NCBI GenBank assembly: GCA_000961595.1
Contig: LADO01000033.1
Location: 1-50,253 of the forward strand
From: Peptococcaceae bacterium BRH_c4b
GTDB lineage: Bacteria; Bacillota; Desulfotomaculia; Desulfotomaculales; Desulfocucumaceae
DNA: 50,253 bases
Reading direction: 5' to 3'
Shown here: positions 27,626-32,444 of the stretch, in pieces
Layout: each line of letters starts with the position of its first letter
Numbering within the stretch: position 1 is the first letter of the stretch
Made by a program: the position numbers and the translations under genes
Notes under the pieces: generated by a model
Seen by the model: the letters and a program-made list of their open reading frames with translations, nothing else
Told to the model about the DNA's origin: nothing
The model's database searches: none

Positions 27626-27661
27626 ATAAAAAAACCTCCCCTGGTTTCAGGAGAGGTTATA
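27626..27661 (-). terminator. Intrinsic terminator of the DASS/CA/ArsB-type operon
   Basis: On the minus strand AACCTCTCCTG pairs with CAGGGGAGGTT (one mismatch) and is followed by seven T. Confidence 0.85.
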
Positions 27662-29625: not shown

Positions 29626-31080
29626 TTATTTAATCAACGGAGTAAGGCCCACCAGCGGCCAGTAAGTATAAATAAATATGGTCATTACTACCAGCACCAG
29701 GATTGTTCCCGGTATGCCCGCCATGAAAAACTCCCCGGTGGTAAACTGCTTAGACTCGTAGGCCATGGCATTGGGCGCGGCTCCTATTAGCAGTATCATG
29801 GGCAAGCCCGCCGCGGCTGTAGCGGTATATAGTACGAGCTGCGGGTTAACCCCCAGGTACTGGGCGATAACCAGGGCCACCGGAAGGGTTATGGCTATGG
29901 CCGCCACGTTCATGATGAAGTTGGTCATGATAATAACCAGAATGGATACACCCAGCACAAAGAACAACCAGGGGGCTCCCTGCAGCAGGGAAAGCCATTC
30001 TATTGCCATCCACTCGGCGGCGCCGGTTTTCCATAACGCAAAACCTATACTCATGGCACCGCTGAACAGCAGAACAATATTCCAGGGGATTCTCTTTTCC
30101 AGGTCCTCAACGTTCAGTATGCCGGTGGCGAAAAATACCAGTCCCGCCAGCAGCAACGGTATGGAACGATCCAAACCTTTAAGCGCCGGCACGGCGGCCT
30201 GCATCACCAGCAGCGTCAGGGCGCAAGCCACAGATATCACTACAAATATTTCTTCTATGGACATGGGGCCAAGCTCTTTGTATAGCTTCGCTGCCTTTGC
30301 GCGCAGACCGGGTATGGTCTTTTTCTCAGGCTTAAATATAACCATCAGCATAGCCCAGGTCAGGAAAACGATAAGCCAGCCCATGGGCATAAGGTGCAGG
30401 GAAAAATCGATAAATGAAATATCCTGGCCGGTAAATTCCTTGAAAAAACCCACTGCAGCAGGGTTGCGGGCCCCGCCCAGAAGTGTGCATATGCTGCCGG
30501 CCCCGGCGGTATAGGCCATGCCTATAAATAGCGCCTTGCCGAACTTCGTGGGTTTGGTCGGGCCGTCACCTTCGTTATATAGGGACAGGATGGTTAAAAA
30601 AATTGGTATGACGGTGGCCGCCACGGCTGTATGGGCCATCAGGTGCGTCAGCAGCGCCGTGACTATAAAGCAGCCCAGCAATATTTTCCTGGTGTCTTCA
30701 CCCACTATCACCAGCATTTTATAGGCTATCCTCCGGGTGAGTCCGACCTTGGAAAAACTAAGACCTACCAGCAGGGAGCCCAGAATGAATAATACGGTGG
30801 GGTCCATAAAATCTCTCATGGCTTCCTTGGCGGGGCGTATGGCAAACAGGGGCTGAAATATGCCTATGGCGATACTGGTAACACCAATGGGCATGACTTC
30901 AAATACCCACCAGACGCCGGCCAGCAGGAAAAGACCGATGGCCGATTTACCCGCGGCGGAAAGTTCAAAAGTCTTTCCTGACGGATCCACAGCGGGACTA
31001 AACTCGGGTAAAAAATGAAATAAGAACAAAAACCCAAGACCAAGTAACAAAAAAAATATATTCTTTTTATCTAGAGTCAT
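29626..31080 (-). CDS. DASS/SLC13-family sodium:anion symporter
   Basis: The product of 484 residues is a multi-helix membrane protein of the divalent-anion:sodium symporter family. Signature blocks are GVWWVFEVMPIGVTSIAIGIFQP, the first half with LLTHLMAHTAVAATVIP, and the second half with NFIMNVAAIAITLPVAL; the AGAGSICTLLGGARNPAAVGF loop is the SNT-like helix hairpin. Likely substrates are dicarboxylates or sulphate; for a bacterium of this type sulphate is an attractive but unproved idea. GAGGAGGGAG precedes ATG 31080. It heads the transporter / gamma-CA / ArsB-type cluster and follows a 313-residue gene of unknown function by 73 bp. Confidence 0.88.
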   Translation of the reverse strand: MTLDKKNIFFLLLGLGFLFLFHFLPEFSPAVDPSGKTFELSAAGKSAIGLFLLAGVWWVFEVMPIGVTSIAIGIFQPLFAIRPAKEAMRDFMDPTVLFILGSLLVGLSFSKVGLTRRIAYKMLVIVGEDTRKILLGCFIVTALLTHLMAHTAVAATVIPIFLTILSLYNEGDGPTKPTKFGKALFIGMAYTAGAGSICTLLGGARNPAAVGFFKEFTGQDISFIDFSLHLMPMGWLIVFLTWAMLMVIFKPEKKTIPGLRAKAAKLYKELGPMSIEEIFVVISVACALTLLVMQAAVPALKGLDRSIPLLLAGLVFFATGILNVEDLEKRIPWNIVLLFSGAMSIGFALWKTGAAEWMAIEWLSLLQGAPWLFFVLGVSILVIIMTNFIMNVAAIAITLPVALVIAQYLGVNPQLVLYTATAAAGLPMILLIGAAPNAMAYESKQFTTGEFFMAGIPGTILVLVVMTIFIYTYWPLVGLTPLIK

Positions 31081-31104
31081 TTTTCTCCCTCCTCATTAAA
31101 AACG

Positions 31105-31132
31105 GCAAATAAGTGAAAACTGCAAATAAGTG
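31105..31132. repeat. Direct repeat upstream of the DASS gene
   Basis: GCAAATAAGTG occurs at 31105-31115 and 31122-31132, a period of 17. It is followed by TGCATTTACTCAGTGCATGC on the plus strand. It could be a regulator site in the gap between the 313-residue gene and the transporter gene. Confidence 0.35.
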
Positions 31133-31153: not shown

Positions 31154-32095
31154 TTACTTCTTTTCTTCTGCAATCATTGGAAAGTCGATTCTTTTTTCGG
31201 CAAAGGCATTTACTATAATTTTCATATAAAGCAGCGAGGTAAAATAAATATTCATTATGTCTACTCCCGGCAGGCTTACGCCCTTAATTGCCGAAGTCAT
31301 CCTTTTCGCCACGTAGTCCATGTGTTCCCCGCTCTCTGAAATGACTCCGATGCCACGCCCCACAATCTCTGTGTCGGCTTTTCTTGCACTAACCAGATAG
31401 TACTTTTCTATGGTGGTTGCTGTATTCAGCACAGCGTTAGCCTGACGCTGCACATATATAATCTGTGCCTCATCACCCGCCTTTCTTATTTCTTGTGAGT
31501 TGTAGGATTTTTCACATATGAACAGTAAAAAAAAATCTTTAGAGTAGTGTTTTTTTATGTTTTGAACACACACAACGTCAGAGTCAAAAAGATCATATCG
31601 CAAGGGAAAGCCACAATCATCGAATACAAATACCCCTGTCAGATTCGAATTAAATACTCCAGCCAACTGCTTAATCAGTATAATAATTCCTCCGGGCTTT
31701 TTATTGTGTGTAATGATCTTCAACATATTTTCACTGTAATCTTCTGCTGTCCCACCCCGCCGTTCCTTCTTTTTATTTTCTGACAAAAAGACTCTTTTAA
31801 TTGTGTTTGCCGGGCTTTGGGAAGGATAAAAAACTCTTTCTAAAGCCATAATCATAGATGTTTTATAGTGTTTCCACCATGTCAGGCCACACTTGTTCAT
31901 TTCCTTGCCCAGCTTGATCAGTTCCTGCAGCGTTTCCATTACATAAATCATTTTTGATTCGGGCAGGTGGTCAAGATTGGCCAGATTCATAATCATTCTC
32001 TGCCTGGATTTGTCACCATCCCTGTAGCTTTCCGACAGTCTTAGATAACTGTATTCCCTGCCCCTGTAATTTGCTTTCACCAGCCTGAAATACAT
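31154..32095 (-). CDS. Unrecognised protein with a transposase-like N-terminus
   Basis: The product is 313 residues. The first about 65 resemble the N-terminal domain of IS1634/IS4-type transposases: MYFRLVKANYRGREYSYLRL, then SESYRDGDKSRQRMIMNLANLDHL. The remainder does not look like a DDE catalytic domain; I see no acidic triad, and I do not recognise the fold. It has a GVFVFDDCGFPL strand, a helix-rich centre and a conserved-looking IKGVSLPGVDIMNIYFTSLLYMKIIVNAF end. GGGGG precedes the ATG. It lies just upstream of the DASS transporter gene in the same direction, so a regulatory role is possible. It might be a domesticated transposase part. Confidence 0.55.
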   Translation of the reverse strand: MYFRLVKANYRGREYSYLRLSESYRDGDKSRQRMIMNLANLDHLPESKMIYVMETLQELIKLGKEMNKCGLTWWKHYKTSMIMALERVFYPSQSPANTIKRVFLSENKKKERRGGTAEDYSENMLKIITHNKKPGGIIILIKQLAGVFNSNLTGVFVFDDCGFPLRYDLFDSDVVCVQNIKKHYSKDFFLLFICEKSYNSQEIRKAGDEAQIIYVQRQANAVLNTATTIEKYYLVSARKADTEIVGRGIGVISESGEHMDYVAKRMTSAIKGVSLPGVDIMNIYFTSLLYMKIIVNAFAEKRIDFPMIAEEKK

Positions 32096-32415
32096 CGGCG
32101 TACCCCCATAAACAAATTACTCTATTGTCACCACCCCTTATACTTTATTTCACCTTTTATGGCAGAAGCCCCCCCTTGGCATATATGAAAGAATTCACTT
32201 GTCCATATAGCTTTTGATATATAGGCATAAACGTCACTACAAAGTCTGCTTTATTATTCAGTATTTTCATGTCCCCTTATTGAGAAATATTATACAATCT
32301 ATATTTCTTTTTGACAACACCTTTTTGCCACTACAGTAAAAAATTCCGCCAACTTCTACGTCCACACCAACAACAATAAACAAAAAAAATGACAAGCCAA
32401 CTGCTTTGTGTGTTC

Positions 32416-32444
32416 TTGCACAAGTCGTTGGGCGGCTATATAAT
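32416..32444 (+). promoter_or_regulatory. Sigma-A-type promoter of the CBS-pair gene
   Basis: TTGCAC (32416-32421), a 17-base spacer and TATAAT (32439-32444) lie about 68 bases before the CBS-pair start. Apart from this site the 416-bp stretch 32096-32511 holds nothing I can identify. Confidence 0.75.

Follow-up and report, generated by a model that had tools for sequence, protein, structure and literature searches.

Introduction

The Tn5 transposase inhibitor is the product of an active transposon gene and controls transposition, and RAYTs are HUH-type enzymes linked to REP sequences. TldR proteins are introduced in PMC13418256, which cites Wiegand et al. 2024, as nuclease-dead homologues of TnpB that function as RNA-guided repressors. 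Our literature search, which was not complete, retrieved no description of a bacterial regulator derived from a DDE or IS1634-type transposase and no paper that linked IS1634 relatives with sulfate transport. A survey of sulfate transporters in sulfate reducers did not mention transposases, and the main text of the Desulfotomaculum reducens proteome paper contained no usable mention.

We analyzed a stretch of 50,253 nucleotides (the window) from Peptococcaceae bacterium BRH_c4b (contig LADO01000033.1), in which a gene for a 313-aa protein with a transposase-like N-terminus precedes an operon of anion transporters. An earlier reading of this DNA from its letters alone (the sequence-only reading) had proposed that the gene might carry a transposase domain recruited for regulation. 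This study compared the gene with its relatives across the order and examined the predicted fold of its product, its neighbors, and its promoter.

Results

Gene, operon, and N-terminal domain

The gene and the other features of the region are listed in Table 1. It lies 73 bp ahead of the DASS transporter gene, which starts at 31080 on the same strand, so that the distance and co-direction given in the sequence-only reading were borne out. The 212-aa hexapeptide-repeat protein of the operon is presumably gamma-carbonic-anhydrase-like. The proposed IS1634-type start was also confirmed, because residues 1-65 aligned with IS1634-type N-termini at 35% identity with a profile-profile E value of 4.5e-17. 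No DDE triad was recognisable in the 313-aa protein, as that reading had stated. At the curated cut-offs, no Pfam or NCBIfam model, including the IS1634 transposase model NF033559, matched the protein.

In the AlphaFold model, residues 1-68 are predicted to form three antiparallel strands (2-10, 13-26, and 29-40) followed by a helix (46-68), and the pLDDT of residues 1-60 is about 90. This domain is the most conserved part of the 313-aa protein, and in the window protein its net positive charge is small (+2).

Table 1. Features of the region around the gene for the 313-aa protein (positions in the window)
Feature	Position	Strand	Remarks
313-aa transposase-derived protein (short form)	31154..32095	minus	ATG start, intact ORF; relatives 22-41% identity
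N-terminal domain, residues 1-68	31892..32095	minus	Presumed DNA-binding; common to IS1634-type proteins
Predicted RNase H-like core (residues 137-300), no DDE residues	31196..31687	minus	AlphaFold, Foldseek, VIA-align
DASS/Na_sulph_symp anion transporter, 484 aa	29626..31080	minus	PF00939, 6.8e-51; first after the 313-aa gene
Hexapeptide-repeat protein, 212 aa	28972..29610	minus	PF00132, 2e-14
CitMHS/ArsB-type anion transporter, 436 aa	27675..28985	minus	PF03600, 2.4e-99; second transporter of the operon
Intrinsic terminator candidate at operon end	27633..27658	minus	11-pair stem, T tail
CBS-domain protein, 192 aa	32512..33090	plus	Divergent from the 313-aa gene
Promoter candidate toward the CBS gene	32417..32444	plus	TGCACA-16-TATAAT
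Tandem repeat AAAACNGCAAATAAGTG x2	31099..31132		Between the 313-aa gene and the transporter; two 17-bp copies; apparently local
Conserved block with promoter and candidate operators, 76 bp	32280..32355	minus	Alignment with the G001 locus
TGTAGTGGCAAAAA, family-associated motif copy	32322..32335	minus	Just 5' of the -35 box
-35 box TTGTCA	32312..32317	minus	Promoter scan, 11/12 matches, 17-bp spacer
TTGTATAATATTTCTCAA, -10 box and conserved downstream bases	32280..32297	minus	Pseudo-palindromic

The protein belongs to an order-wide family with two forms

Far from standing alone, the protein represents one branch of an order-wide family. Full-length relatives (identities in Table 1) were present, frequently as two copies, in seven of the eight genomes of the window's GTDB family and in a single genome (G016) of a neighboring family. 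The N-terminus alone matched longer proteins in many genomes of the order, and we distinguish a short form of approximately 310 aa from a long form of 460-570 aa that is usually single-copy per genome. Named contigs with relatives were those of Desulfocucumis palustris (the closest), Desulfoscipio, Desulfotruncus, Desulfofundulus, Desulfovirgula, Desulforamulus, and Sporotomaculum, which are Desulfotomaculum-type Gram-positive bacteria.

Most long forms inside the order scored 271-862 bits, and across 398 genomes of the phylum no long-form score outside the order exceeded 241 bits, the outside hits having been partly checked for the triad. The phage and plasmid collections yielded no relatives. 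A scan of genome contigs with the 313-aa protein as the single query returned no match, and the short-form alignment lacked the conserved stretches needed for such a scan. Members of this uncharacterised, immobile family were encountered in no order other than that of the Desulfotomaculum-type sulfate reducers. The dsrA gene was present in 53 of 54 family-positive genomes versus 25 of 59 negative ones, a comparison that phylogeny confounds.

Several details of individual loci were also recorded. Two long forms, L115 and L132, lie on contigs labelled Actinobacteria and Deltaproteobacteria, and the label of L132 is probably wrong because the genome collection places L132 in the same order. Desulforamulus has two long forms in tandem: in Desulforamulus aeronauticus (L143:1866-9556) a cassette of a long form, a TauE/SafE gene, and a gene for a 238-aa protein is duplicated in tandem, and several Desulforamulus genomes have the same long-form gene pair about 4 kb apart. 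A conserved protein of 235-240 aa with no Pfam or NCBIfam match is commonly encoded after the TauE/SafE gene (L178:2206-2916, L143:8840-9556) and is probably a partner of this transporter. Two short-form copies look broken, namely G005:C9:16502-17430 (L044), which is split into two frames, and the truncated copy in G006:C65 (L040); an intact transporter gene lies beside each.

Predicted fold of the remaining part

The AlphaFold model of the window protein, built from a 10-sequence alignment, had a pLDDT of 78 and a pTM of 0.83. It predicts a helical stretch after the N-terminal strands and helix and then an RNase H-like order of strands and helices. The Foldseek search with the short form ranked the Tn5 transposase inhibitor and the Tn5 transposase at the top, with weak scores (E 9.4e-3, probability 0.90), and several RNase H-like proteins were among the weak matches. 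VIA-align gave a Z score of 6.6 to Tn5, a level that can reflect a common arrangement. The long form matched the Tn5 fold clearly, with a Foldseek E value of 2.2e-6 and a Z score of 14.9. When the C-terminal part of the short form was compared by hhalign with the long forms and real transposases, the match was not significant, and its register was sensible.

The modelled structure suggests that the remainder of the 313-aa protein is probably a shrunken RNase H-like transposase core. A transposase origin is thus established for the N-terminal domain of the short form and, given the weak Tn5 fold match and the non-significant hhalign result, probable for its C-terminal part.

Loss of the catalytic triad, immobility, and selection

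For the triad, 13 genuine IS1634 transposases of the same order served as the reference; several of them occur in identical multiple copies. The results revealed that the long form is CATALYTICALLY dead: D1 or E was kept in 0 of 25 long forms, whereas D-D-E was present in all 13 real transposases, and the second D was variable among the 25. The long-form core aligned with real transposases over its whole length (hhalign, E 1.2e-57). Among the nine long forms compared, conservation was far higher in the first 55 residues than elsewhere, and the positions CE-x-x-YN and H-x-x-YV were conserved in most short forms.

By NG86, two comparable short-form pairs had dN/dS ratios of 0.19 and 0.25, and long-form pairs had ratios of 0.14-0.25; over the first 60 codons the ratio was lower still in most of the pairs compared. 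The range of 0.14-0.25 indicates that the family genes are maintained and are not remnants. These genes occur as one copy per locus in syntenic positions and not as mobile multicopy genes at variable locations. No pair of terminal inverted repeats was found around the 313-aa gene, a result that leaves room for degenerate ends. The TGGTATAAT end of one active IS1634 element was absent near six of seven long-form loci and occurred as one isolated copy near the seventh. Active multicopy IS1634 elements are present in some genomes, such as G054.

Three long forms were scored against NF033559 and reached 65-239 bits, only some of them above the cut-off. This equivalog model labels inactive, immobile long forms as IS1634 transposases (for example, L051:5811-7484). 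In these genomes the label 'IS1634 family transposase' wrongly names resident genes, and it would mislead the annotation of dozens of genomes.

Family genes adjoin anion transporter genes

Almost every short-form gene had a DASS transporter gene as its next neighbor in the same direction, with gaps mostly of -4 to +95 bp, and this gene was usually followed by a second, CitMHS/ArsB-like transporter gene. The exceptions were L005, in which the DASS gene lies 875 bp on and behind its own promoter, and L040, in which the truncated short-form copy comes after the DASS gene. The source genome has three PF00939 genes, and the two of the family type each follow one short-form gene; G003, the sole family-member genome without a short form, has zero PF00939 genes. 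Long forms usually adjoin DASS, TauE/SafE (TSUP), or CBS-domain genes, and they are often near HdrBC/HdrA-Qmo-like genes as well. Four long forms (L125, L127, L128, and L142) have no transporter gene nearby, and in this branch the association was lost or never formed. The same four have other neighbors in common, an AMP-ligase and an ABC ATPase-like protein.

Dicarboxylates, citrate, or arsenite are further substrates of DASS and CitMHS/ArsB proteins. Genomic context, that is, the host group and the gene neighbors, indicates that the substrate of the operon is probably sulfate. For Desulfotomaculum species, the candidates for sulfate transport listed in PMC5840216 are mainly DASS and TSUP/CysZ proteins.

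A conserved promoter block lies upstream of the gene

The sequence-only reading had suggested checking DNA binding at the repeat at 31105-31132, between the gene and the transporter, which is an unlikely site for it. The spacer in most relatives is 12-53 bp long or is replaced by a 4-bp gene overlap, so the repeat at 31099-31132 is not a conserved element; an operator role was rejected for it because most relatives have too short a spacer. Better candidates were found at 32280-32335, on the other side of the gene.

The window and G001 proteins are about 40% identical, and the intergenic regions of the two loci share one block of 76 bp; the rest is poorly conserved. The block contains, in order, TGTAGTGGCAAAAA, a degenerate direct repeat that overlaps the -35 box TTGTCA, 17 bp, TATAAT, and ATTTCTCAA. 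An independent promoter scan ranked this promoter first in the region.

The 18-mer TTGTATAATATTTCTCAA has exactly three copies in the 3.6-Mb source genome, one at the window promoter and two at the promoters of the other short-form operon locus, and the next-best match differs at three positions. G001 likewise contains exactly three copies, all at short-form loci. Among the eight genomes searched, TTGTATAATATTTCTCAA at 0-1 mismatch was confined to those with short forms, and the two genomes that have the long form alone had none. Short-form operons with the same promoter layout (type A) were found in G000, G001, G004, G005, G006, G007, and G016, with the motif starting 16-18 bp 5' of the -35 box. 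The -10 block is also present in type-B operons, whose promoter at the operon start has no upstream TGTAGTG copy. TGACAA copies also lie 3' of the start region in most of these promoters. As in one-component regulator systems, the gene lies beside its presumed target and a conserved cis-element is shared.

A second motif recurs upstream of family and transporter genes

K-mers were counted in the 300 bp 5' of 45 family genes. The words AGTGACAAA and GTAGTGACAA were at the top among those that are not A/T-rich, and their counts exceeded all shuffles. Training on the DNA 5' of family genes yielded the motif TGTAGTGRCAAAA, which is found again 5' of the neighboring transporter genes. Sites of at least 12 bits in the position matrix were present in 33 of 48 regions 5' of family genes, which are training data. 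Outside the training stretches, matrix hits were found in 12 of 52 regions 5' of neighboring DASS/TSUP/ArsB genes versus 1 of 184 regions 5' of other genes (Fisher 5e-8). Related species are not independent, and the motif p-values therefore overstate the strength. Column-shuffled matrices matched 0.3% of target regions on average and 3.8% at most.

Exact GTAGTGACAAAA had 67 matches versus 43 for the control word in family-positive genomes and 15 versus 49 in negative genomes. Outside the training stretch, 18 of the 67 sites were located at most 10 kb from a family gene, against an expectation of 0.57. In family-positive genomes, several remote sites lie ahead of DASS, TSUP, or YeiH-like (PF03601) genes, and others are inside unrelated genes. 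In Desulforamulus, two remote DASS operons (L200 and L201) bear sites with no adjacent family gene, and the long forms are elsewhere in the genome. One family-negative genome (L186) has an exact site some 460 bp upstream of a gene that resembles DASS/ArsB weakly. The long-form genes L140, L141, and L113 have no good motif site.

The source genome contains exactly two copies of TGTAGTGGCAAAAA, at 32322-32335 and at C62:19925. The latter is just 3' of the TauE gene in a second CBS-TauE locus (G000:C62:15000-25000, L176), where no family gene was seen adjoining the CBS and TauE/SafE genes. Two weaker motif copies lie 5' of a CBS-TauE-236-aa operon at C19:8553-8671 of the same genome.

At L190 and L196, in one family-negative and one family-positive genome, an exact GTAGTGACAAAA falls within a ribosomal protein gene, a coding coincidence that serves as a warning on exact-word counts. 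A descent of the cis-motif from the terminal repeats of active IS1634 elements was considered and was not convincing, the motif sharing TGACAA with one element alone.

Discussion

Our findings make it fairly probable that the 313-aa protein descends from an IS1634-type DDE transposase, that it is now domesticated and catalytically dead, and that it controls the anion-uptake operon which its gene heads as a DNA-binding, autoregulated regulator. The synteny, lost catalytic residues, purifying selection, and linked cis-elements support the earlier proposal of a transposase domain recruited for regulation; that this domain is fused to an unrelated fold is improbable. A DNA-binding ancestral transposase would have lost catalysis, its gene would have become fixed, and it would have come to share promoter elements with anion-uptake genes. 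The N-terminal domain of three strands and a helix may bind TGTAGTGRCAAAA copies around the promoter, TTGTATAATATTTCTCAA over the -10 box, or both, and the dead RNase H-like part may dimerise and perhaps sense a signal. With candidate sites that overlap -35, -10, and +1, the bound protein would keep the operon repressed until the anion, probably sulfate, is needed. Repression appears likelier than activation because the elements overlap these positions. The long form, usually single-copy, would regulate other transporters of the genome in the same manner.

A wider proposal, which we offer tentatively, is that a dead DDE transposase gave rise to transcription factors throughout the order. The ancestral long form would read TGTAGTGRCAAAA at DASS, TauE/SafE, and its own promoters, short copies heading transporter operons would read TTGTATAATATTTCTCAA, and the two would jointly tune sulfate uptake. 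Against a role as regulator stand the small charge of +2, the non-significant profile match of the C-terminal part, the type-B operons that have no TGTAGTG, the long forms with no site or no transporter, and the sites with no family gene beside them (L186, L200, and L201).

The main rival holds that the cis-elements belong to a conventional transcription factor and that the family protein is just one more member of the regulon with another function, such as that of a cytoplasmic accessory to the transporters and CBS proteins or of their sensor partner. The site near a transporter-like gene in the family-negative genome (L186), the family genes that have no site, and the remote site-bearing DASS operons of Desulforamulus (L200 and L201) are consistent with this explanation. 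The explanation is nevertheless rather doubtful: the N-terminal domain is homologous to a transposase domain and is under the strongest constraint, the motif excess occurs in family-positive genomes alone and clusters at most 10 kb from family genes, and TTGTATAATATTTCTCAA at 0-1 mismatch follows the short form in the eight genomes searched. Alternatively, an RNase H-like core might serve a nuclease or an RNA-binding function through other residues, such as CE-x-x-YN and H-x-x-YV, which would account for the conservation of these positions in most short forms and for the RNase H-like proteins among the weak fold matches. We consider such an activity improbable, given that the D1 and E carboxylates are lost in the long form and that no metal-binding set is recognisable.

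A role as a transposition inhibitor, in which a dead relative would poison the active transposases of IS1634 elements in the manner of the Tn5 inhibitor and the transporter genes would adjoin by chance, is suggested by the best Foldseek match of the short form and by the active elements in genomes such as G054. This role is highly improbable, because the protein is kept in G002, G004, and G016, where no other IS1634 match was found, the C-terminal regions are highly diverged, and the transporter synteny and shared promoter elements would be left unexplained. The slightest chance of all is that of a functionless transposase remnant decaying between genes, to which the broken-looking copies in G005:C9 and G006:C65 would correspond. 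This was already unlikely from the dN/dS values of the two short-form pairs, and frames are intact in most genomes with operon position and promoter conserved.

If the preferred explanation, a regulator descended from a transposase, is true, a bacterial DDE transposase has been turned into a host gene regulator, in parallel with the route from TnpB to TldR, and there is a candidate in Gram-positive sulfate reducers for the control of sulfate uptake, with which sulfate reduction begins. The short DNA sites make the idea of a regulator directly testable.

Compared with IS1634 transposases (NF033559), the family has their N-terminal domain, and the long-form core aligns over its whole length; it differs in having no DDE triad or multicopy mobility, no terminal repeats that could be found, and a fixed chromosomal neighborhood, and the 313-aa form is not recognised by NF033559. 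The Tn5 transposase inhibitor (PDB 1b7e) is likewise a shortened transposase and the best Foldseek match of the short form, whereas no transposon remains at the 313-aa gene. RAYTs are also transposase relatives kept by the host, but the present family is DDE-derived and inactive. A functional analogy may be drawn with TldR, likewise a catalytically dead protein of transposon origin that has been exapted and is tied to genes outside transposons; regulation has been demonstrated experimentally for TldR and is proposed for this family. The family is DDE/IS1634-derived and not TnpB/RuvC-derived, and its candidate sites are short promoter motifs. The exaptation of dead transposon proteins as regulators is already known for TnpB, and what differs here is the DDE/IS1634 route.
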